NCBI GenBank assembly: GCA_034440635.1
Contig: JAOTON010001130.1
Location: forward strand, 486,501-550,500
Length of the DNA: 64,000 bases
Origin: Lepas anatifera
Taxonomy: Eukaryota; Arthropoda; Thecostraca; Lepadidae
Direction of reading: 5' to 3'
This document shows, one piece after another, positions 1-60,004 of this stretch. Made by a program: the position numbers and the translations under genes. How positions within the stretch are numbered: position 1 is the first letter of the stretch; the number at the start of each line of letters is the position of its first letter. Below the pieces are notes generated by a model that was not told the origin of the DNA, ran no database searches, and saw only the letters and a list, made by a program, of their open reading frames with translations.

Positions 1-400
1 GGACGATTACCTTTATTGTTTCAATCTGGCTTTTTGGAACCCAGGTGACGGTGTGAGCTAATCGGTCGGCACAATATTTCCTGTCCGAGATACAAGTCTT
101 TTTTAGGCTACCTTGAACAGTCTAAAGACACTTCACCTGCTTCATTTTTGGTTGTAATTTTGTGGCGATTAATAATAAATAAAAACATTCTTTAGATCAT
201 GGAACCAAGTACACCAAGCATTTATGGTTACCAAACGAAACTGTTAAAGCATACAAATCGGCTCGTATGCCCATATTTGGTCTCACGCCAAAAATCAGCA
301 AAACATCCAAAGTTATCGCAAAGAATATCCGAGAGGATCCTCTGCTCCAGGTGGTCCGGATAAAGCAGGACTGTGCCACTCATGTTCATTCACTGGCACA

Positions 401-531
401 TACCGACTCCGACTCCAGCTCGGAGTGGGGGTCGGCTAAATTCTACTAACTCCGACTCCAACTCCGTCTCCAGTCAAAACGTCCGACTCCAACCGACTCC
501 AACTCCGACTCCTCCTCCGACTCCGCAGCTC
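401..531. repeat. GACTCC-type hexamer repeat
   Basis: Degenerate tandem repetition of the hexamers CCGACT and CCAACT, interrupted by a short inverted stretch (GCTCGGAGTGGGGGTCGGC). It produces low-complexity Thr/Pro-rich open frames that I do not regard as genes. Confidence 0.75.
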
Positions 532-2898
532 TGCCCCAAACACACACACATAGGCTAGGTCTGCCACATCACTCGCTGTTGCCCGTCACGTCACTGCAAA
601 CCATACAGGCAATCACCACTGGTGCTCCCTTGGTGGTCTAGCGATCGTTAATTTAAACAGAGGTCTCTGATTCTAGCTAAGATTTCGGAGAACATAACAC
701 ACTAGTACTAAAAGTTGTCTATTCTAAGTACTGAGAGAATTTTGAGGAAAAAATATGACGAAGATTCTTGAGGCTTTAATCGGTTAAATATGTACACCTC
801 CTATGGGTTTCCATGCTGATTCTTATAACCAACTGGTTCAGCCCTTCCTTATTCATACATGTAGGAACTTATTCATGTAGAAAGGTATGCAGCACAGCTT
901 TTTTACGTGCATCCAGCCTGTGAAACTTCTTTTGATAGTGAGGCATACTTTTGCGTACGTATTTCTTGCTAAGCACATTCGCTGTTTTCACAGAAGTTCC
1001 TTTCTAAGAAATAAATACTCAGGTTGAGGTTTTTGAGCTTAACTCAAAGATACTGCGTTAGCAGAAACATGTCTTCGTTTCTATTTACAATGCATAGGTC
1101 GTGTGACTAACTTTTTCTCCTCCCCTTTAGTGACGTGCATGCCATTCATGGGCAGATCCAGGGGAAAATTTGGAGCCAAACCTTCTTCCCCTAATCGAGT
1201 ATTACTTCCCTAGGATGCAATGAGGGTATTAGAGTCCTGGAATGCGATTTAACGCCCCTAAGAGTTTGCCACGCCCAAAAATGGCGCCCTCTTCCCAACG
1301 TCTCCACTCCTCAAAATAAATGCCTGGCTCTACTTGCGACGCAAGGATACAAATGATGTTATAATGCAAATTTTAGAGCTGAGAAACTGTAAAGAAAACA
1401 CACATTCATCCAGTATCCTCTTGTTGCCATTTCAGAAATATTCGCTACCGAACAGTATGTGCTACAAGAAGGCTGGGATGTCCTGCGGCACTGTGTAACA
1501 TCGGAGCCTGCTGCCTCCTGTTCCGCCCAACACAGGTGATGTACGGGTTAGTATAACGACCACACTTTGTGAGTCAGCGGACAACATCGAACAGAAGCGT
1601 CGCGGCCTGGTGGTCAACCACAGGCCTCCTGGTATCAACTCGTCAAAGTGGCAGAACTTCACGTTTTGATGTTTTTACGTGACTGCAGCTTTGAATATAA
1701 AACATTTCCATTACCCATCCTGGCTAGCAGAATACAAGATTAAGGAGGGCACAGGCTTCCACGCTTGATCCGGTCCCACGCTAAAAATCCGTGGCAACGA
1801 GTGCACTGAAGAAAAACATCAAATATACGCCATTGATCGCATAATGGAGTGAATTATGCTTTCCAAAAAAGGCCCGTTGCGTTAGATTCGATTTTTTTCA
1901 TCCATTTTCAAAGGCTATAGTAGCTTTCCAGTACTGAGGGCGTTAAGCGGCATTATTCTTTTGATAGCTTAAACGTTTCACGTACGATGGTTTGGTTTGA
2001 AGTCGCCATAATTCCTCCAGCTTTATAAGAAGAGGTTTGGTGAGCATCAGGGACGTCGCCAGGGAGGAGTGGGCAGAGGTATTGTGTAAAGCTGAAAACA
2101 TTAAGCCAAAATAGTATAAAGCTTCCAAATTTTATCGAGAGTTTGTACATAATTTAAAAATGTGTCGAGATCGGAAGTGTGTGCCTTTGTACAAGATCAT
2201 TGTTTTTTTTAGCAGGGATCTAAGGTTTCAATAATAACATGGTTCACCCCTCCCCCGTCCTCACGTTCTGGCCGATGACGATCGTGCTCTTGGTGAATAC
2301 ACTTATATCCCAGCAATGCTCTTCGGATGTCCTCTGGCATAGTCACTGAAGAGCCCTTAAACCCCAACCCGCGCGGATGTCATTTCGCATAGAGAGCTGT
2401 CGCTACATAATGCTGCATGCTTCACTGTGAATAATTCACACAAACTATAGGAGTAAGGGCATGCTATTCTACACTATAAATTAGCTAACTGGGTAGCTAA
2501 GCCACAGCCTAGGTGCGACTATCTCCGGGAGACGCCCAAGCATTAGAGGGGCGCCGGTAGGTGCCTGCCATATTTCTGATTACACTTTCGACACTGAGAT
2601 AGCAGGACTACCGTCTATTGCGAAGCGTCGCTCTGAGGGTGCGGCTCCAGTGCGGCTGTTGTCCAGGAAGGCCACCAGGTCTTACGCCAGTCGTGTTTGA
2701 CTCGGCGCTGGGTTAGTCACGCGTCGGGAGCTACAGATTTGTAGCGCGGGAACACTGCACTGCCATCTAGCGGCGAACCGGCCACCTGCATGTTCTCAAC
2801 CAAACAATCCAGAGGGCACAACCTGTGCTGGGTTCTCGCATAAAGCTCGTTCTTCCAGAGGGAATATAGACGTAGGGATATGGTCCGATCTTAATGGG
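532..2898. other. No recognisable gene (intergenic)
   Basis: I read both strands here and at 1-400 and found no open frame with family resemblance, no tRNA-like fold and no clear terminal repeat. The composition is AT-rich with scattered GC-rich patches, for example around 2620-2780. Confidence 0.5.
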
Positions 2899-3351
2899 TT
2901 AACCCATTAACGCCCAGCGGGTCATTTTTGTCCTCTGACTTTGACAGGCTGCAGAATCGGTACCAGTGAAATGATCTTCATGTTTATGATATGGATGTGT
3001 GTTTCAGAGCGTGGACAAGCTGGAAAAATGCATTTGAAAATTCTAGGTTATTATGGGACAATTTTGGTGGAACTTATTTTGGCGAGGTTTTGGTCAGCGT
3101 GAGATAGCTCTGCAAATTTTGTTTCTCGCAATAACATATGGAAAGCTGAAAAGGGTTTGCATGATTGACATTAAGCCAAGACCACTAGGAGTCAGATGGT
3201 GAAGAAGGAGTAAGATTTTCTTGAACGGCTTTGCCATGAGACATCGTCAAATATGAAGCGGACAAAAATGACCCGCTGGGCGTTGCGGACATCTGCGGGC
3301 CGCTGAAAATGAGGAAAAGGATGTGTCCTGTCCTCCCGTCTGGTGGGTTAA
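2899..3351. mobile_element. TTAA-type miniature element, copy 1
   Basis: The block starts TTAACCCATTAACGCCC and ends GGGTTAA. Inside, ACGCCCAGCGGGTCATTTTT (from 2910) reappears inverted at 3261-3283. TTAA at both outer ends fits a non-autonomous element of piggyBac or Kolobok type. The right terminus is degenerate and lies about 68 bp outside the inner inverted repeat, so the right boundary is less certain than the left. No transposase is present. Confidence 0.6.
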
Positions 3352-4992
3352 GTGCACAATGTTACCTAGAAGGAAGGGAGGCATTGTGGGTCCTGCGAAT
3401 GCAGGGTTGTCAGTTTGTATATTTTTCATCAAATCTGAAGATTTTTAGTGCAATGTCGATACGTTTGGAATCTTTGAAGTTCATGAAATGCTTCCTACCG
3501 TTTTCGGGGTCTGTCTTATTTTGGGAATGATTATCACATAATTATAACGGAAACATGCAAGATGGTTCCAGTATTTTGTAAAGGCGTTATTAAATACAAT
3601 TTTCAGGGGTTTTGAAAAATTATCGAAATCTTAGCACTGACTAAAAGCTAGCAGAGCCTTGTCTTTTCCCCTTGATTGATTGTGTGTAGTGGATAGAGAG
3701 GATAGGGAACAGTAGCGGATTGAGGACTTCATTGGGTGGTGGGGGGGGGTTTAGGGGTCTTGAGCCTCCCCGCCATGGCCTCGGAACAGCCCTCAGTAAT
3801 GCATTTAGGTACTATAGGCACACTGACATTTCGGTAGGGGGGGCTTGAGCCTTCCTAGCCCCCTTGTGTCTACTAATGATTGAAAGCCAATGACCAGCTG
3901 ACAAAAATGAGTTGGAAATTATCGCGGCCGCCGCGCTGGCTTGTTTTGACGAGATGGTGCAATGTCAAAAGTCTGGAACAGTATAGAATGGGTGAAAGCT
4001 TGGGAAGTTCTAGAACTTCTGTCTAAAACCCAACTATCACTTTTTTGCTTGGTTCTAGTAAAGTGAAACTACCATGAGTGAACATCCCGGGGGGAAGGAG
4101 GAGGGGTCAAGACCTGCCTGTATTTTTGTCTCCCACAGACTTTGTCTAGAGCTTGGATTGCAGTGCCAGCGTTAAACCATCTAGAACCCTTCCTGGATCG
4201 AGAAGAAATCTCCAGCCATGGAGACATAAAAATATCGAAAGCATAGCTGTTAGCAATGCCACAGATCAAATGTTTTGCAGGAAAAGAAGCAAAATAAGTT
4301 GTTTTAAGTGCGCAAGATAGCGGAGCGGATCAGGTGCATATCATAATCATACCATAACAAAATATATTAGTCATGAGGATGAGAAAGATGATGAGCTGAC
4401 CAGCGTTACAATGACTAGTGGCGTGCCTGGAAATGTGGAGGTTCACATTTATGAAACTATGAAGCGCGCTACTTGTTCCAAAGAAAAGTTGGAAAGATGG
4501 GAATGGACCCGTTTGGAGATTTGGAGATTAATCAAGCTAATGTGCACCGCGTGGGGAGCTAACGGATTGAGTTTTCAAAACTTTTCATCTGTATGCTGCA
4601 TATTACGATTTCTCGTTGAAAGCTCAGTGAGCATCAGTCACAAAGTCTGGGAGGCGGAGAAGGAAAGGGGTAGAGAAAAAGAAACGGTTTCCCAAAACCT
4701 TTGATATTCACAAATATTCTTAAAATACTATGATGTTTACAATTTTAGTCGATCCCCCGCAAATCATCAGTCTAGGTTAACCACGCTTGTATACTATTTG
4801 CAAATATGCTGTTAGTATTGCCTTTAATTAAACCTTAAGAGCATAGAACTGTCTAAACATTTTACTATGGCCAATATACAAGAGGAAATAAAAACACTTC
4901 ACAGAACTGCAGTAAAAGCGATGCGCATTGGGCCGCTGAGTGCGGTGACAGCGCCGCCTGGGAGCCGGCCGCGCAGTGCCAGCCGATGTCCC
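3352..4992. other. No recognisable gene
   Basis: Around 3715-3880 there are G-runs followed by 'cttgagcctcc' and 'cttgagccttcc', resembling decayed ends of a hAT-like element, but no target duplication is visible. A 97-codon frame at 4411-4704 has no family resemblance. A minus-strand ATTAAA near 4821-4828 could serve as a poly(A) signal for the LIM gene upstream on that strand, which is weak evidence. Confidence 0.4.
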
Positions 4993-5155
4993 AAACGCCC
5001 AGCGGGTCATTTTTGTCTGGTGTCATATCTCAGAATCTAAAAGTGGTATCGATTTAAAACTTTCGGAACATCTTATTGGGCATATTCTAAGCGTAGGAAA
5101 ACATTTGTTTTGCCAATTTTAAAGCTGGAAGTAGGTGCGGGCGTTAATGGGTTAA
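4993..5155. mobile_element. TTAA-type miniature element, copy 2 (truncated)
   Basis: This begins with the same inner motif as the 2899 copy (ACGCCCAGCGGGTCATTTTT) and ends GGGCGTTAATGGGTTAA, the exact inverse of that copy's left terminus. The outermost left bases (TTAACCCATT) are missing. It lies downstream of the LIM protein stop codon on the minus strand and may be in its 3' UTR. Confidence 0.65.
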
Positions 5156-5451
5156 GAGGTGCATGTTTTTTTCAGACTATTGAGAGATAAACTTTTAGAG
5201 GAGATAGGTACTTTTGCGTGTTGGACTTCGTCGAAATTAAAGACACCGCATTTTCATCCACCTTAATTACCTTTAGAGACCAGGTTTCGGACCGGAAAAC
5301 TTCCCGCCAGGGAAAATTCAGTCACATTTAGGCCAAGCAAAGCCAAAGCCCCTATCGCAGGTTCCCTGGAGCTTATAGCAAAAGGAAGATAAGCACATCT
5401 CGTCCAGCGAGGAGCAGCATGCGTGCGAAAAGGTCGTAGCTGTTTGATAAC

Positions 5452-5627
5452 TCACGACGGGGACTCTTCGTTGCCGAGGTGTTCGCCGGTGTCCATTCCG
5501 AGGGTGCCGGCTCCGCCGCCGAACCCATATCCTTTAGGTCCATAGCGTCGGCCGTGGCACTGCTTACAGAATAGGTCGGTACCGTGCTCGGCACAGTTGG
5601 TGGAGTCCAAGCCTTTGTTGCACAGAC
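5452..5627 (-). CDS. Mlp60A: Muscle LIM protein, coding exon 2 (last)
   Basis: This is the second coding exon of a 97-residue single-LIM muscle protein. It is read on the minus strand from an acceptor (AG at 5629-5628) to TGA at 5454-5452. It supplies residues 40-97: the rest of the split Ser40 codon, then [33 protein letters not shown], a glycine-rich stretch and a short acidic tail. Together with exon 1 it completes a perfect LIM zinc pattern: C12-x2-C15-x17-H33-x2-C36-x2-C39-x2-C42-x17-C60-x2-C63. The RRYGPKG basic motif and Gly-rich segment after the LIM are hallmarks of the CRP/muscle LIM family, which acts at Z-discs and in the nucleus as a scaffold in striated muscle. The length fits the single-LIM arthropod form (Drosophila Mlp60A is about 92 residues). 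Homology by motif is very strong; the single-LIM assignment rests on the in-frame stop. The first ~18 bases of this exon are copied in the adjoining tandem array. Confidence 0.93.
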
Positions 5628-5629
5628 CT
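5628..5629 (-). other. Splice acceptor of LIM exon 2
   Basis: The minus strand reads ctgctgtcgacag followed by GTCTGTGCAAC. Joining here to the A left by exon 1 restores an AGT (Ser) codon and the C-x2-C spacing of the LIM domain. The same acceptor sequence lies in a 10-bp palindrome (CTGTCGACAG) that is repeated throughout the upstream array. Confidence 0.85.
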
Positions 5630-7185
5630 GTCGACAGCAGAAGGCTAGCTTAGAGTCAGTCCTTGTCGTACAGACCTGTCGACAGCAGAAAGCTAGCTTA
5701 AAGGCAGCTCTTGTCGCACAGACCTGTCGACAGCAGGAAGCTAGCTTAAAGGCAGCTCTTGTCGCACAGACCTGTCGACAGCAGAAAGCTAGCTTAAAGG
5801 CAGCTCTTGTCGCACAGACCTGTCGACAGCAGAAAGCTAGCTTAAAGGCAGCTCTTGTCGCACAGACCTGTCGACAGCAGGAAGCTAGCTTAAAGGCAGC
5901 TCTTGTCGCACAGACCTGTCGACAGCAGGAAGCTAGCTTAAAGGCAGCTCTTGTCGCACAGACCTGTCGACAGCAGAAAGCTAGCTTAAAGGCAGCTCTT
6001 GTCGCACAGACCTGTCGACAGCAGAAAGCTAGCTTAAAGGCAGATCTTGTTGCACCGACCTGCCGACAGCAGGAAGGCTAGCTTAGAGGCAGCTCTTGTC
6101 GCACAGACCTGTCGACAGCAGAAAGCTAGCTTAAAGGCAGATCTTGTCGCACAGACCTGTCGACAGCAGAAAGCTAGCTTAAAGGCAGATCTTGTTGCAC
6201 CGACCTGCCGACAGCAGGAAGGCTAGCTTAGAGGCAGCTCTTGTCGCACAGACCTGTCGACAGCAGGAAGCTAGCTTAAAGGCAGCTCTTGTCGCACAGA
6301 CCTGTCGACAGCAGAAAGCTAGCTTAAAGGCAGCTCTTGTCGCACAGACCTGTCGACAGCAGGAAGCTAGCTTAAAGGCAGCTCTTGTTGCACCGACCTG
6401 CCGACAGCAGGAAGGCTAGCTTAGAGGCAGCTCTTGTCGCACAGACCTGTCGACAGCAGGAAGCTAGCTTAAAGGCAGATCTTGTCGCACAGACCTGTCG
6501 ACAGCAGGAAGCTAGCTTAAAGGCAGATCTTGTTGCACCGACCTGCCGACAGCAGGAAGGCTAGCTTAGAGGCAGCTCTTGTCGCACAGACCTGTCGACA
6601 GCAGGAAGCTAGCTTAAAGGCAGATCTTGTTGCACCGACCTGCCGACAGCAGGAAGGCTAGCTTAGAGGCAGCTCTTGTTGCACAGACTTGTCGACAGCA
6701 GGAAGGCTAGCTTAGAGGCAGCTCTTGTTGCACAGACTTGTCGACAGCAGGAAGGCTAGCTTAAAGACAGCTCTTGTTGCACCGACCTGTCGGCAGCAGC
6801 GGGCTAGCTTAGAGTCAGCCCTTGTTGCACAGGCCTGTCGACAGCAGGAAGGCTAGCTTAGAGTCAGCCCTTGTTGCACAGACCTGTCGACAGCAGGAAG
6901 GCTAGCTTAGAGGCAGCTCTTGTTGCACAGACTTGTCGACAGCAGCGAGCTAGCTTAGAGTCAGCCCTTGTTGTACAGACCTGTCGACAGCAGGAAGCTA
7001 GCTTAGAGTCAGCCCTTGTTGCACAGACCTGTCGACAGCAGCAGGTTAGCTTAGAGACAGTCCTTGTCGCACGGACCTGTCGACAGTAGCGGGCTAGCTT
7101 AGAGTCAGCCCTTGTTGTACAGACCTGTCGACAGCAGCAGGTTGGCTTGAGGCGGCCCTTGTTGCACAGACTTGTCAGCAGCAAA
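5628..7185. repeat. 48/49-bp tandem array of 3' splice-site copies
   Basis: About 32 tandem units (48 bp, or 49 bp where AAGGCTAGC replaces AAAGCTAGC) fill the LIM intron up to its acceptor. On the minus (sense) strand each unit has a CTAAG-like element, a short pyrimidine-rich stretch, CTGTCGACAG, then about 18 bases matching the start of LIM exon 2. Typical units carry two 10-bp palindromes, CTGTCGACAG and AAGCTAGCTT. A variant with TGCCGACAG and CACCGACC recurs near 6049, 6193, 6389, 6534 and 6631. Units next to the exon (5676-6050) are almost identical, and distal ones (6660-7185) more diverged. In the exon 2 reading phase the units I checked meet a stop within about nine codons. A 165-codon plus-strand frame ([16 protein letters not shown] repeats) exists only because 48 is divisible by 3. 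Confidence 0.95.
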
Positions 7186-7518
7186 AGGTTAGCTTAAATA
7201 CAATGTTTTGACTGCAGAGTGTTGAAGCTCTACAGATAAATTATTTTCTGTTGTTGTGCTTTGCATAATGAAAGGTTCAAACCCAAGTTCTACGGTACCA
7301 GAGCTTAGATAAGAGCCATCACATAATATGGAGCTAAATTAATTAATATGAGGTTTTCAACATAAGAAACTCGGTAAACAAAACATATCATCAGGCAAGA
7401 TCAAATAAAAAGGCATTCGCAAAACTTACGTGTTGTGTCTAGGAAGGCTTTCTATGTTACTGGCACACTCCCGATGTTTCTCCTGTTCCCCAGAGGTCAC
7501 AAACTACGCTAATTAAGA
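7186..7518 (-). other. LIM intron, unique part
   Basis: AT-rich intronic sequence between the tandem array and the inserted TTAA element. I see nothing else in it. Confidence 0.6.
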
Positions 7519-8368
7519 TTAACACGCGCATTGACGGGGGTCTGAGCCACCTTCGCATTGACGGGGGGGCGGGTACCCGCCCCCCTAAGATCTCGAGAAC
7601 CACGGTAGGTAGCGAAAAACGGTAAACGGCGTTGGGCTGCCCATCCACTTCTCCATCGAAAACATTTGAACCATTTTTTTGTCAGGTCACATCTAAGGTC
7701 ACGAGAGGTCAAAACATGCCCGTCATAGGGATAACATGTAAATTCAGTTTTTCGGCAATGAAATCTGAACAAGTAAAGATAGAGCAAAACGACTTGAACT
7801 ATATGAATCCTCTTAGCAAGCCGAATCGAATGATATATAATTTGACCTTGCTAGGTCAAATCAAGGATTTGACCTGACCTGAGGTCAGGTCAGGGTCAAA
7901 TTATATAAAATGCATATCATTAGAACCGCAAAGCCCAGGCGAGTCTAATGCAGCTAAAATAAATGCTCTATCACCATCCGTTACTGAGTTATTCCGTAAA
8001 AACCATTTTTCCCATGTATTTCCAATGGAGAGGTCATGCCTCGTACCTGACCTTAGGTCATCGATATCAAAAATACCGGAACATATTTTAGAGAACTCGG
8101 TGGGGCCATTATGTGATGTGAGTTTCAATCGGATAAGTTCACCCTGCTCCGACTTATGCTATCTTAAACTTTTTTTGAGGTCGGGTCACTTGACCTGTAC
8201 TGGTGACCTGACCTGAGATGACCTAACCTTAAAATTTTCACAGAAGTTGTAAAAATGATGAGGGAAAAGGTATACCAAGTACGGCGGCGCTACGCGCCGC
8301 CGTTTTTCTGTTGTCTCCGAAAAACCCGAGGGGGGCGGGTACCCGCCCCCCGTCAATGCGCGTGTTAA
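7519..8368 (+). mobile_element. TTAA family 1 element, copy A (in LIM intron)
   Basis: 850 bp from TTAA to TTAA. The left end is TTAACACGCGCATTGACGGG and the right end its inverse. Just inside each end is a GC palindrome around GGGTACCC, flanked by G and C runs. The left end carries an extra partial duplication (GCATTGACGGGGG twice, with a 14-bp spacer). The interior holds about 18 GGTCA/TGACC half-sites, including a palindrome near 7871-7893 (TGACCTGACCT, 1-nt centre, inverse). There is no open reading frame of transposase type. The TTAA target fits piggyBac or Kolobok mobilisation; the family itself I do not recognise. Confidence 0.9.
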
Positions 8369-8812
8369 AAAGGACTCAGAGGGCCTGGAAAATAATCCCT
8401 TTCTGGTGGTAAAGCTCAATATTTTTGGTTACAAATTTATTTGGTGACAAGTATACACTTTTGTCCACCTCTGCTGTTCACAGTCGCTTCAGCTTCAAGC
8501 AGTAGCTGCACTCAAAGCCTGTTGGCGCAAATACAGATCTACAGGAGGGGAGAAGGGGGCACTCTCCCCTCTCCCTCCAACTGACCATAAATGCCACCTG
8601 GAACTGTCACGATGCCCCCGCAAGGTTGCTTCCCACCTCCCTCCACAGGATGCAAATGTCAGCGCCCCTGCGACAGGACTTGACGCCTATCTGATAGATT
8701 TGCCCGGCCAATAGTGACGCCCCCTGGTGCGTATGCTCCCCCAAACCATATCCCCCACCCTATCAGAGAACCTGAATCCACCTGTGTTCTGCCGATCCTC
8801 TCTCGTATACTC
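8369..8812 (-). other. LIM intron with decayed transposon end
   Basis: The minus strand about 25-30 bases after the splice donor reads CACAGGTGGATTCAGG. The same motif occurs at 15878-15893 next to a C-run. It looks like a hAT-like terminus, with G-rich sequence behind it. I could not find a partner end or a target duplication, so only the motif is supported. Confidence 0.35.
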
Positions 8813-8814
8813 AC
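8813..8814 (-). other. Splice donor of LIM exon 1
   Basis: The minus strand reads AAATGCA followed by GTGAGTATAC, a consensus donor. It leaves one base (A) of a split codon, matching the two bases (GT) at the start of exon 2. Confidence 0.9.
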
Positions 8815-8932
8815 TGCATTTGAAGCAGCCCTTGTGGTACTTGTGTCCACCCGATACTCTCTCTTCGGCGGCGTATACAGCCCGGTCACACACCGGACAC
8901 CGTGCAGGTGGGTCGGGCGCCTTGAACGGCAT
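8815..8932 (-). CDS. Mlp60A: Muscle LIM protein, coding exon 1
   Basis: 118 bases: 39 codons plus one base, from ATG at 8932-8930 to the donor. The peptide starts MPFKAPDPPARCPVCDRA and continues VYAAEERVSGGHKYHKGCFKC, the signature N-terminal half of the muscle LIM/CRP domain, with zinc ligands C12, C15, H33, C36 and C39. A possible acceptor (gtgtcgacag) lies one base before the ATG, so the ATG exon is probably preceded by a non-coding 5' exon further right on the minus strand. A decoy ATG at 9014-9012 opens a similar but out-of-frame peptide (MSFKEPRP) that stops after 18 codons. The exon is flanked by two inverted copies of the same TTAA element (7519-8368 and 9061-9919). The exon is GC-rich and intact. 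Confidence 0.93.
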
Positions 8933-9060
8933 TCTGTCGACACATCCAGCACCAAGGTCAGCTTGTCTCCCAAAGCTCAAGGCCCTCAACCGGCCTTGGC
9001 TCCTTGAACGACATCTCATACAGACACGGTGAGGAATGAGAATGCAGGACTTGAAGGTTT

Positions 9061-9919
9061 TTAACACGCGCATTGACGGGGGGGCGGGTACCCGCCCCCC
9101 TCGGGTTTTTCGGAGACAGCAGAAAAACGGTGGCGGGCAGCGCCGCCATACTTGGCAGACCTTTTTCCTCATCATTTTGCAACTTCTGTGAAAATTTTAA
9201 GGATATGTCATCTCAGGTCAGGTCACCAGTACAGGTCAAGTGACCTGACCTCAAAAAAGTTTAAGATAGCATAAGTCGGAGCAGGGTGAACTTATCCAAT
9301 TGAAACTTATATCATATAATGGGCTCACCGAGTTCTCTAAAACCTGTTCCGGTATTTTTGATATCGATGACCTAAGGTCAGGTACGAAGCATGACCTCTC
9401 TATTGGTAATACATGGGAAATATGGTTTTTACTGAATAACTCAGTAACAGATGGTGATAGAGCGTTTATTTTAGCTTCATTAGACTCGCCTTGGCTTTGC
9501 GGTTCTAATGATATGCATTTTATATAATTTGACCCTGACCTGACCACAGGTCAGGTCAAATCTTTGATTTGACCTAGCAAGGTCAAATCATATATCATTC
9601 GATTTGGCTTGCTGCGAGGATTCATAGTGTTCAAGTTGTTTTGCTCTATCTTTACTTGTTCAGATGTAATTGCCGAAAAACTTAATTTACATGTTATCCC
9701 TATGACGGCATGTGACGGCATGTTTATGACCTCTGGTGACCTTAAATGTGAACTGACAAAAAAATGGTTCAAATATTTCCGATGGAGAAGCGGATGGGCT
9801 ACCCAACGCCGTTTACCGTTTTTTGCTACCTACCGTGGTTCTCGAGATCTTAGGGGGGCGGGTACCCGCCCCCTCGTCAATCCGAAGGTGGCTCAGACCC
9901 CCGTCAATGCACGTGTTAA
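9061..9919 (-). mobile_element. TTAA family 1 element, copy B
   Basis: 859 bp, TTAA to TTAA, in the opposite orientation to copy A and close to identical along its length. The same GGGTACCC-centred GC palindromes lie inside both ends, with the same half-site-rich interior. It lies upstream of LIM coding exon 1, probably in a 5' intron. Confidence 0.9.
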
Positions 9920-17993: not shown

Positions 17994-18274
17994 CAGGCTG
18001 AACTAAGCAACACGTGTAATTACCAGGCTGAACTAAGCAACACGTGTAATTACCAGGCTGAACTAAGCAACACGTGTAATTACCAGGCTGAACTAAGCAA
18101 CAAGTGTAATTACCAGGCTGAACTAAGCAACACGTGTAATTACCAGGCTGAACTAAGCAAAACGTGTAATTACCAGGCTGAACTAAGCAACACGTGTAAT
18201 TACCAGGTTGAACTAAGCAACACGTGTAATTACCAGGTTGAACTAAGCAACACGTGTAATTACCAGGCTGAACT
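17994..18274. repeat. 30-bp minisatellite, 9 copies
   Basis: Unit CAGGCTGAACTAAGCAACAC plus GTGTAATTAC, nine near-identical copies and a final partial copy that runs into unique sequence. Each unit carries the palindrome ACACGTGT (E-box core CACGTG); single-base variants are at the fourth (AAGTGT), sixth (AACGTG), eighth and ninth units (GGTTG). Confidence 0.95.
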
Positions 18275-21587: not shown

Positions 21588-22625
21588 ACTCACCGGTGGT
21601 TACCCTGGCATCACTATACGCCACACCGGTGGTTACCCTGGCATCACTATACGCCACACCGGTGGTTACCCTGGCATCACTATACGGCACACCGGTGGTT
21701 ACCCTGGCATCACTATACGCCACACCGGTGGTTACCCTGGCATCACTATACGCCACACCGGTGGTTACCCTGGCATCACTATACGCCACACCGGTGGTTA
21801 CCCTGGCATCACTATACGCCACACCGGTGGTTACCCTGGCATCACTATACGCCACACCGGTGGTTACCCTGGCATCACTATACGCCACCGGTGGTTACCT
21901 GGCATCACTATACGGCACACCGGTGGTTACCCTGGCATCACTATACGCCACACCGGTGGTTACCCTGGCATCACTTATGCCACACCGGGTGGTTACCCTG
22001 GCATCACTATACGCCACACCGGGAGGTTACTCTGGCATCACTATACGCCACACCGGTGGTTACCCTGGCATCACTATACGCCACACCGGTGGTTACCCTG
22101 GCATCACTATACGCCACACCGGTGGTTACCCTGGCATCACTATACGCCACACCGGTGGTTACCCTGGCATCACTATATGCCACACCGGGAGGTTACCCTG
22201 GCATCACTATACGCCACACCGGTGGTTACCCTGGCATCACTATACGCCACACCGGTGGTTACCCTGGCATCACTATACGCCACACCGGTGGTTACCCTGG
22301 CATCACTATACGCCACACCGGTGGTTACCCTGGCATCACTATATGCCACACCGGGAGGTTACCCTGGCATCACTATACGCCACACCGGTGGTTACCCTGG
22401 CATCACTATACGCCACACCGGTGGTTACCCTGGCATCACTATACGCCACACCGGTGGTTACCCTGGCATCACTATACGCCACACCGGTGGTTACCCTGGC
22501 ATCACTATACGCCACACCGGTGGTTACCCTGGCATCACTATACGCCACACCGGTGGTTACCCTGGCATCACTATACGCCACACCGGTGGTTACCCTGGCA
22601 TCACTATATGCCACACCGGGAGGTT
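21588..22625. repeat. 33-bp minisatellite, about 31 copies
   Basis: Unit GGTGGTTACCCTGGCATCAC plus TATACGCCACACC. Because 33 is divisible by 3, long frames appear in several phases (VVTLASLYATP or GVAYSDARVTT repeats), but base deletions near 21885-21900 and an indel near 21973 shift every one. Variants CACACCGGGAGG recur at about 22017, 22184, 22350 and 22615. On the minus strand the array ends in CCACCG followed by GTGAGTGT, a donor-like junction at 21594/21593. Confidence 0.95.
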
Positions 22626-22855
22626 ACTGCGCTTGATTCATCACTTGTCGTGGGAGGGCCAGGGCTTATCATCTGGCTGTGACTAGATAATGAATCAATA
22701 GGCGTATCAACTGGCTGTGAATAGATAACGAATCAATAATATAACTGAGCAGTGGAGGGAGACCTTATTTTCAGCCATATGCGCACCAGACACTGCCGAG
22801 TCTCAACACTAGGAAGAGGAATGCCTTCGTAACCGATGTCAAACTAAAATGAATG

Positions 22856-30739: not shown

Positions 30740-32750
30740 CAATCCTAATTCGAGCACCCCCAATCATGTGCTGAGCACCCCCAATACATGTGCCGCCCCT
30801 GGCTTATCACTGATACCCTGAAAAGTGTCACCCTATCTCATCACTGCCACCCTGATTTGTGCCGTCCCTCACAAGTTTTCCCCGTCCCGGATTCATTACT
30901 TCCACTCTGATTTGTTCCACGTCTAATTAATCAATGCCACCTGACTTATCATTTCCCCCTGATTTATGACGCCGCATCACTGCCGCCCCCTCCGGATGGT
31001 TACTGCCGCCTTTTGTTCATCACTGATCAGCTGGCTGATCACTGACACCCCTGTTTTATCACTGCCGCCCCTGGTTAAACACCCCGGTTTATTTAAACAC
31101 CCATATGCTTGCCCGTCCTAGTAAGTCACTGTCACCCACCGAATCATTTTTGCCGCCCCCCTGCTGATCACTGCCGACCCTCGTTCACCACTGCCGCCCC
31201 TGGCTGATCACTGCCGCCCCCTGGCTAATCATTGCCGCCCCCTGACTGATAACTGCCGCCCCTGGCGGATAACTTCCGCCCCCTGGCAGATCAATGCCGC
31301 CCCCTGGCAGACCACTGCCGCCCACTGACTGATAACTGCCGCCCCCTGACTGATCACAACCGCCTCCTGGCTGATCACTGGCGCCCCTGACTGATTACTG
31401 CCGCCCCCTGACTGATCATTGCCGCCCCTGGCGGATAACTTCCGCCCCCTGTGCCGATCATTGCCGCCCTCTGACTGAGAACTGCCGGCTTATGGCTGAT
31501 AACTGCCGCCACTGGCTGATCACTGCTGCCCCTTGACTGACAACTGCCGCTCCTTGGATGCTAACTGCCGCCCCTGGCTGACTACTGCCGCCCCCTGACT
31601 GATTATTGGCGCCCCTTGGCTGCTAACTGCCGCCCCTGGCTAATCACTGCCGCCCCCAGCGGATTCATAAGTGTCACCCCCTGGATGATAACTGTTGCCC
31701 CTGGCTGATAGCTGCCGCCGCTTGACAGATAAATTCCACCCCTTGGCTGCTAACTGGCGCCCCAGGCTGATCACTGACGCACCTTGGTTGATCACTGCCG
31801 CCCCTTGTTGATAACTGCCGCCTCTTGTTGATAACTGCCGCCCCTGGCTGATAACTGCCGCCCTTTGGTTGATAACTACCGCCCCTGGCTGATTACTGCC
31901 GCCCCCTGAATATAACTGCGGCCCCCTGGCTGATAACTGCCGCCCTTGACTGATAACTGCCGCCCCTGGTTCATCACTGCCGTCTCCCGGGGCAGTGAGC
32001 ATCCTGGGGATATCTGGGCGGTGAACGTTCTGGGGGGAGCATCCTTCTGTGGATATCACTAACATCATGTTATATCTGAGGACCATTAGTTTTAATGTCA
32101 TATATTCATCCTAGTAGTCTTTCAGGTTTTACATAACTTCGAGTTTCATGTTACCTATAGTCTCAGACTTTAATATACCGTGTGAAATTGTCTGTGTCAT
32201 TTTTCAGTATTTGGATTTCATTTAATCTTTTATGTGTTTTATATAATCTTCTGATAAAAATTTCACAACCTGACCTGTTTTGCCAACTGACTTGTTAAAA
32301 TTCCTGCGGAAATGTCTTATTTACGTGTTATGGGCGCCGTATGACCCTAGATGTCGGCGCGCTCTAAAACCTCAAATATGACGATGTACCGTCTCACGGC
32401 TGATCACTGCCGCCCCTGGTTTATCACTGCCGCCTAATTCATGCTGTCTCTGGCCCATCGTTGTCCCTGGCATATTTTGACCCAAATGCGCGCCGCCCCG
32501 ACTCATCGCTGCCGCCCCTGGTTCATCACTGATGCCCCTGGCTTATCACTGTCTCCCCTGGTTCATCACTGCCGCCCTAATTAATCATTGCTGCCCTGAT
32601 TCACGCCACTCCTAGCTCCCTGTTTTAAATTAACCCATATGAGCGGCCTCTGGTTAGACACTTCCTCCCTCGAATCTTCACTGCCGCTCCCGGCTGATCA
32701 CTGCCGCCCCTGGTTTATTACTGCCGAGGAGACCAGTCCGGCCATGGCCC
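30740..32750. repeat. Degenerate ~20-bp satellite, version A
   Basis: Unit close to CTGATCACTGCCGCCCCTGG, many tens of diverged copies, interrupted by about 300 bp of AT-rich unique sequence at 32050-32390. At the left edge it grades into GAGCACCCCCAATC repeats that match the terminal inverted repeat. A 153-codon minus-strand frame is an artefact of the repeat. Confidence 0.85.
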
Positions 32751-58660: not shown

Positions 58661-59446
58661 TAAGCTCTAGGTGTAATAATTTTCCATGTACTACAGTGAC
58701 TTAGAGCCCTGCGGATATATGCGCGGATTACACTAGTCTTGTAAGTGTCAGTGCAGTCCCCTCCTCCATTCATACAACGTCCTAGATTGGTCGGTTTCCT
58801 GTACACGTTCGTGGTGATGATATCTTGCCCTGCATCTATCATAAGGTCCAGAAATAGGAGTTTGTTGTTAACGCTCAGTTCTGTCGTAAAATTGAGGACT
58901 GAGCTGGCACAAAGTTGGTTCTTAAGTCCAGTTAGCTGATCCATATTTGCCACGTCGAGATATATATCGTCGATATAGCGGAAATATTGATGGGGCCTAT
59001 TCTCGCCTTTAAGGACCATATTCTCCACATGACCCATGTAAGCCTGCGCAAACAAGACACCCAGCGGAGACCCCATAGCGACACCATCAGTTTGGACATA
59101 TAGGTCTCCCTGCGGGCACCTGAAGGGAGATTCCTTAGTACACAGTTGCAAAAACTCCCTAAGGACACGGCGTGGGAGCTTGGGTGCTTTAAGGGAATCA
59201 TGTTCATATACACTCTTCAGGATAATATCTATGGTCTCCTCCACCGGGACGTTAGTGAAGAGGCTCTCGACATCTAGTGAGGCTAAAAATCCTTTAGGCT
59301 TGCTACTACGCAGAATATCTACAAAATCCTCAACCGACTTTAAACCATAATCATTTGGAACAAACGGTGTGATAATATTGTTTAGCTTTTTGGCAATATG
59401 GTAAGTGGGAGTTGGAATTTGCGAAATGATGGGCCTGATAGGATAT
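58660..59446 (-). pseudogene. Penelope-like reverse transcriptase fragment
   Basis: The minus strand starts within the RT (IRPIISQIPTPTYHIAKKLN) at the head-to-head junction. It includes FLASLDVESLFTNVPVEETI (first catalytic Asp), DGVAMGSPLGVLFAQAYMG, YFRYIDDIYL (YxDD-like catalytic pair) and KLLFLDLMI. It ends RALSHCSTW, followed by a frameshift. DVxSLFTNVP, GxxMGSPLS/G-type and RYIDD motifs are diagnostic of Penelope-like elements rather than LINEs. The first few hundred codons are absent (5' truncation). Confidence 0.92.
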
Positions 59447-60004
59447 ATCACAACCCCAGTAAGGCCACCGCAGAAACACAAAATAACCATACACTACAGA
59501 AACATACTCACACCGGCATGGAAAACAGACGAGAGGGTCTTTAGGGACATTATCACACGCAACACTGCTTCTTCCGATCATAGTTACCAGTTACACCTGA
59601 ACATCTACTACAAAAATCCCAAAACTTCCAGCCTAGTCATGAAAAACAACACTAACCAGAAAACCACACCACTGAAGCAAACCAACGTAGTATACCAATA
59701 CAAATGTACTGCCGGGGACTGTGCAACCCGCGAGGTATACTACGTTGGTCACACAACCACTACACTCAGCCGCAGACTGACAATGTACCTCCAAGACGGT
59801 GCTCCTAAGAAACACACCCTTGACCAGCACAACATCACCCTCACCCGCAACATGCTCACATCAAACACTAAGATTATAGCACACTGCAATGACCGGCGAC
59901 GACTAACAACACTTGAAACCATCATCATTCGCAACAAGTCGCCGGTCATAAACATTCAGACTAAACAGCTCACTACGCTACCACTTTACGATAGGAAAAT
60001 TTAG
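59447..60004 (+). pseudogene. Penelope-like GIY-YIG endonuclease (right, inverted copy)
   Basis: Plus strand, open from about 59447 to the TAG after DRKI. It covers the linker and the complete GIY-YIG domain: YQYKCTAGDC, REVYYVGHTTTTLSRRL and LETIIIRNKSPVIN. It lacks any RT and is therefore 5'-truncated. It is nearly identical to the left copy but has no frame break in the endonuclease. Confidence 0.9.

Follow-up and report, generated by a model that had tools for sequence, protein, structure and literature searches.

A muscle LIM protein gene of Lepas anatifera carries, immediately upstream of its second coding exon, 32 complete tandem copies of an intron–exon junction, each unit covering both sides of that junction. 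The array, which was counted in one haplotype, is in our view probably a junction-spanning intronic minisatellite that is tolerated since its exon-proximal copy keeps a working junction, and not a device. The gene lies on the minus strand of the stretch of DNA analysed here (the window; 64,000 nt), with the following coding features; slashes in the motifs given below mark splice boundaries.

8815–8932, minus strand: coding exon 1, with the ATG at 8932; the first half of the LIM domain, ending FKC + A (placed by homologues, residues 1–39 of which align here)
5628–8814, minus strand: putative intron separating the two coding exons, 3187 nt (boundaries from homologues)
5456–5627, minus strand: exon 2, the second half of the LIM domain, probably internal (placed by homologues)

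The gene and the layout of the array

Joined, coding exons 1 and 2 encode a predicted protein of 97 residues with one LIM domain (PF00412, E 4.6e-10), related to CRP1 (1b8t, E 1.2e-46); its best match among the 120 homologues listed of 213 found is the muscle LIM protein of the barnacle Amphibalanus (73% identity), residues 1–39 of which map to exon 1 and residues 40–96 to exon 2. Single-LIM muscle LIM proteins (CRP/MLP) have a LIM domain followed by a glycine-rich tail, and the predicted protein has this arrangement. The exon-1 donor reads GCA/GTGAGT, the first intron base being 8814. When the window was searched by tblastn with the 120 listed homologues, nearly all of the 224 matches fell at exons 1 and 2 (118 begin in the bin that holds exon 2, 104 in bin 8500–8999, which holds exon 1, and 2 at 9000–9499), with no clear sign of an extra LIM domain.

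When the 120 listed homologues are compared with the gene at a permissive cut-off, 109 show a match to each of the two exons and 11 to exon 2 only; the 109 include at least one doubtful case, P0107, which by eye looks like an exon-2-only ORF with foreign upstream sequence. In all 11 exon-2-only homologues the similarity begins at the first whole codon of exon 2; three begin exactly there, whilst eight carry different residues ahead of it, the pattern that an ORF reading from intron into exon would give. Because the homologue alignments run right up to this boundary, the start of exon 2 at 5627, proposed in the first-pass annotation, is well supported.

The exon-2 ORF is ended by an in-frame TGA (5454–5452) which sits within a donor, GTC/GTGAGT (donor G at 5455), and for this reason exon 2 is probably an internal exon. 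Homologues P0102, P0107, P0108, P0114 and P0115 end after S at the position of the stop, P0001, P0004, P0005, P0008 and others continue past it with NKP, and a further group has different endings; we take this as a sign that longer protein forms exist and that exon 2 is internal. Together with these differences among homologues, the stop codon within the donor (5450–5458) points to a conserved switch, based on a stop inside the donor, from which short or long forms would result. A search of 1–5455 (minus strand) with one pattern gave no candidate for a downstream exon coding S-NKP as in the homologues, and a poly-A signal scan of 4700–5460 found one ATTAAA, at 4828.

At the other end of the intron, coding exon 1 lies in the 686-nt gap between inverted repeat copies (7519–8371 and 9058–9919), made up of pieces of 456, 207, 100, 84 and 52 nt, the four largest 91–95% complementary and the last 79%. 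Repeats so placed could promote the formation of circular RNA, editing or skipping of the exon.

The array divides as follows.

5628–7171, minus strand: array of 32 complete units, 1544 nt (TRF; cut at the exon boundary)
~7172–7200, minus strand: outermost intron tail, like the intron half of the unit (TTTAAGCTAACCTTTTGCTGCTGACAA; sequence comparison)
6787–7171, minus strand: diverged distal units u01–u08 (unit comparison)
5676–6786, minus strand: core units u09–u31, homogenised most strongly from u12 (unit comparison)
5628–5675, minus strand: unit u32, which has diverged from the core and supplies the real acceptor with its intron end (unit comparison)

TRF assigns 5615–7198 a period of 48 and 32.8 copies (90% matches, score 2261), and finds a second period of 145 nt (three units) over the same stretch. 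The units, numbered from the distal u01 (near 7171) to u32, which adjoins exon 2 (5628), measure 48 nt in 22 cases, 49 nt in nine and 47 nt in one, and each consists of ~25 nt of exon-2 head and ~23 nt of intron end. An earlier count of about 32 tandem junction copies just upstream of the real acceptor is thereby confirmed, as is the description of the unit as a repeat of the junction; the stated 48/49 bp is correct but for the one shorter unit, and the exon part is longer than the ~18 nt then given. With units that straddle a splice junction supported by homologues and stand in tandem, the array can be classed, from its sequence, as a junction-spanning minisatellite or VNTR.

GTCGAC is present in 26 of the 32 units and GCTAGC in 30 (5628–7171); these, which we take to be SalI and NheI sites, respectively, would make a handy ladder assay for copy number. 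Array and unit queries revealed no second array locus in the window, only 12–13-nt matches beyond the array. Among 7998 candidates scored, an array-derived ORF (5376–6077, minus strand) had no match in a protein database at E 0.001, and Rfam gave no match at gathering score in 5000–9500. Other large minisatellites are present (21591–22627, 31151–31982 and 17994–18274; 33-bp x31, 41/62-bp and 30-bp x9), making the stretch minisatellite-rich. Elsewhere in the window, a reverse transcriptase ORF (58663–59493), presumably Penelope-like, has its best named relatives in the crustaceans Eriocheir, Oratosquilla, Palaemon and Macrobrachium, ranked below five others, and similar reverse transcriptase ORF sequences occur on the opposite strand near 59405–60001.

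Origin and evolution of the array

The proposal that the array arose from the gene's own intron–exon junction is strongly supported by comparison of the exon-2 head with the units. The alignment to u04 spans 25 exon bases and contains a single mismatch and a single 2-nt gap; its score of 34 is reached by none of 5000 dinucleotide shuffles and none of 2070 window placements. Against u01 the score is 29 (no shuffle or placement as high); a core unit, u31, gives a weaker alignment (score 21, shuffle p 0.0034, 3 of 2070 placements). Across the array, likeness to the exon is greatest in u04 and u07 (34), lower in u12–u31 (21) and u32 (19), and lowest in u03 (16). Because the coding sequence on the exon side is conserved, it is the junction that gave rise to the array and not a satellite that gave rise to the exon.

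The nearer a unit lies to the exon, the less it generally departs from the consensus (Spearman −0.69 for all 32 units, −0.81 when u32 is left out), and the distal units are, as first described, the most diverged. The exon-adjacent unit is not the most uniform: u32 has 7 differences from the consensus, against 0–4 in u12–u31, and is the sixth most diverged of the 32. Of the growth or homogenisation from the exon end that had been suggested, the homogenised core thus stands, whereas simple growth from that end does not fit, the exon-proximal u32 being an outlier. Most of the distal end appears to be old and the core to be derived and homogenised, with u32 as an edge unit. Identity between neighbours is highest at a lag of three units (0.939, versus 0.916–0.917 at lags of one, two and four). 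Diverged edges, a homogenised core and a multi-unit period form the pattern left by unequal exchange, and the three-unit lag, the 145-nt period and the distribution of divergence all fit this process.

Four environmental ORFs related to the gene (P0104, P0112, P0114 and P0115) read 26–34 residues up into the intron; by eye, no repeated exon-head motif occurs in these intron-reading parts, from which we conclude that the array is not common to those relatives. No relatives were confirmed in viral contigs (searched with the whole protein) or in prokaryote contigs (searched with the exon-2 peptide).

The exon-1 acceptor (8934–8964; AAGCTGACC...TGTCGACAG) resembles the array acceptor. In comparisons with u03 and with u32, none of 79 control sites scores as high, and in comparison with the outermost tail 4 of 79 do; under stricter gap costs the likeness to the array has a shuffle p of 0.007–0.03. 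The exon-1 acceptor carries CTGAC at a place matching the array branch motif, and TGTCGACAG is absent from the rest of the window beyond this acceptor and the array.

Choice of acceptor

AG stands at the exact boundary in 28 of the 32 upstream junctions; the remaining four read CAA/G, with the AG displaced by one base. On conceptual translation none of the 32 upstream acceptors reads into exon 2: the 28 exact-boundary acceptors would give products of 45 or 47 residues and the four shifted ones products of 61–64, which agrees with the earlier claim that use of an array copy would truncate the protein (32 of 32 stop after 45–64 residues). All 33 junctions have pyrimidines at 10–11 of 17 positions. 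When 29 positions (−20 to +9) are compared, each upstream junction departs from the real one at 2–7 of them, and 8 of the 32 depart at only 2. Acceptor sequence alone does little to distinguish the real site from the copies.

Branch-point motifs were sought as the consensus yUnAy, from which animal branch points depart freely, at −15 to −50 of each junction. The motif is found at 8 of the 33 junctions (the outermost tail, u02, u03, u04, u05, u07, u08 and u32), and 6 of the 8 distal units u01–u08 carry CTGAC or CTAAC. None of the 23 units u09–u31 has it, nor does it occur anywhere in their 1111 nt; there is thus no support for the core copies as strong competitors. Over the minus strand of the window yUnAy occurs at 17 per kb, yet of the window's 2324 CAG sites, those of the array among them, 1365 have no such motif, and 42% of shuffled units lack it as well. 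Since absence of the motif is so common by chance, branch-point loss was rejected as proof of selection; the core consists of the descendants of few founder units, and the loss represents at most a few events.

CTAAC, which appears from these comparisons to be the ancestral branch site, survives in the outermost tail and in u03; 30 of 32 units have CTAGC in its place. As u32 is among the latter, the real exon-2 acceptor may be weak. Unit u32 does retain CTGAC 29 nt before exon 2, with two further AGs between motif and acceptor. At the outermost junction the branch-point-like motif is the cleanest of all, a CTAAC 18 nt away with no intervening AG. This junction is also predicted to be more open than any of the other 32 (0.46); by these two measures it looks the strongest, though its acceptor-like AAG end is one base off. 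That this junction, and not the real one, looks best placed in motif and predicted openness counts against a tolerated array.

Our preferred explanation, that the array is a tolerated minisatellite, has as its first step a tandem duplication spanning the intron–exon junction of this gene, followed by enlargement through slippage or unequal exchange. Each duplication would leave a complete junction on the exon side, such that the last copy stays intact and splicing would still occur at 5627. Choice of that acceptor would rest on the CTGAC of u32, which is absent in the adjoining core, on exon context and on the donor at 5455, acting through exon definition. Mistaken use of a copy would yield a truncated protein and, if exon 2 is internal, the transcript would probably undergo nonsense-mediated decay. 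A role for the array in splicing kinetics or isoform choice is possible.

It is rather unlikely, in our assessment, that the array is a poison-acceptor device, in which the copies compete with the real acceptor, leakage gives a stop-containing, decay-prone mRNA, and the number of copies adjusts how much muscle LIM protein is made or gives rise to a half-LIM isoform. The truncation predicted for all 32 upstream choices, the exact-boundary AG in 28 of them and the yUnAy kept in the outermost junction and in 6 of the 8 distal units are what such a device would call for, and exon 2 probably has a donor, which would place the stops upstream of a splice junction. Retention of AG would, however, be expected in young copies regardless, the core units u09–u31 lack yUnAy, and the array is not common to the four relatives inspected by eye. 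Quite unlikely is the version in which the acceptor has been rebuilt from the minisatellite, with the ancestral branch site lost in 30 of 32 units, the exon-relic CTGAC of u32 serving as the branch point, and the ladder of poison acceptors setting the level of full-length protein in a copy-number-dependent manner.

A further alternative is that the RNA occludes itself, copies of two 10-nt palindromes pairing between units to hide the core acceptors. CTGTCGACAG, which ends at the acceptor, occurs 23 times in the array region and AAGCTAGCTT, which lies over the old branch site, 17 times. Core unit u29 contains both; two or more 10-nt palindromes arise in only 65 of 20000 shuffles of it, and tandem arrays of shuffled units are predicted to be as closed as the real-unit array in 4 of 100 trials. 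Mean predicted openness (200-nt window) is 0.13 in u18–u31 versus 0.22 at the real site. The real acceptor nevertheless ranks only 14th to 21st of 33 over four window sizes, and RNA structure as the acceptor selector is accordingly weak. Its opening hardly changes when the exon is shuffled (0.27, sd 0.06, n 40) or u32 is replaced by a core unit (0.20), and so looks like an edge effect; a fold of 316 nt has a z of just −1.88, 3 of 100 shuffles being equally stable. We consider self-occlusion distinctly improbable.

The boundaries also invite a reading as a ratchet ladder or intron-gain intermediate, in which GT...AG units with paired CAG/GTCTGT sites undergo recursive splicing or act as small new introns. 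Upstream boundaries read AG/GT in 27 of 32 cases, AA/GT in four and AG/GC in one, and the array thus consists of tandem units bounded by AG/GT, as in AGGT-type intron gain. CAG/GTCTGT fits 7 of 9 positions of the donor consensus, and with recursive splicing the reading frame would be recovered without a break. The donor regenerated after exon 1 (GCA/GTCTGT), however, fits at only 4 of 9, where the exon-1 donor fits at 6, which disfavours recursive splicing, and 48 nt is short for an intron; this reading is very improbable. Tandem repeats are prone to assembly error, but 20 distinct unit sequences in ordered variation are not what a looped assembly would easily invent, and it is extremely unlikely that assembly made the copy number or the array itself.

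The array offers a natural test of how a spliceosome picks one acceptor among some 33 similar ones in series, in which branch point, exon definition and transcription order can be told apart as factors in acceptor choice. If copy number varied between animals, it would provide a ready dose series. The case also indicates that a minisatellite may span an acceptor of a coding gene and leave the reading frame to all appearances intact.

Comparison with known junction arrays

Minisatellites that carry splice sites in series are already represented by IFI6/G1P3; the G1P3 minisatellite reportedly provides multiple splice donor sites, as the title of a 1995 paper in Nucleic Acids Res has it. The sites there are donors, and in Lepas they are acceptors.

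The human CBS gene supplies two further parallels. Its 31-bp VNTR, c.1444_1467+7(16_21), has 16–21 units (PMC2630376), each of which, by its name, comprises 24 exon and 7 intron bases, again placing junction copies in series. This VNTR lies on the donor side (exon end and intron start), whereas the Lepas array lies on the acceptor side, with a 48-nt unit and 32 copies. In the CBS 844ins68 junction duplication the more distal, exon-proximal site is strongly favoured (PMC2630376); the passage in question speaks of splice donor sites, whereas the work it cites (Romano 2002) has a 3′ splice site in its title. Here the intron-end/exon-head junction is duplicated to give two sites in series, as in Lepas, but with one extra copy only, compared to 32 and homogenisation.

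Tandem duplications are also described in PMC4974935, namely intron gain in the potato RdRp gene by tandem duplication across the intron 1/exon 2 boundary, and multi-copy 24-bp AGGT repeats in fission yeast. The potato case resembles the Lepas array in duplicating an intron end and exon head with branch site, pyrimidine tract and acceptor, and the yeast case in its multi-copy AGGT units; these examples, as reported there, have few copies and a new intron, whereas the Lepas array is described from genomic sequence. For recursive splicing in Drosophila, a weakened ratchet-point donor led to inclusion of the cryptic exon (PMC8605326); the ratchet points share with the array AG/GT at most boundaries, but the regenerated Lepas donor is poor (4 of 9).

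No description of an acceptor-side, many-copy array was found in the open-access literature, which was the scope of the search. By analogy with these systems, the Lepas array can be viewed as an acceptor-side, many-copy version of the known donor-side and few-copy acceptor-side arrays.
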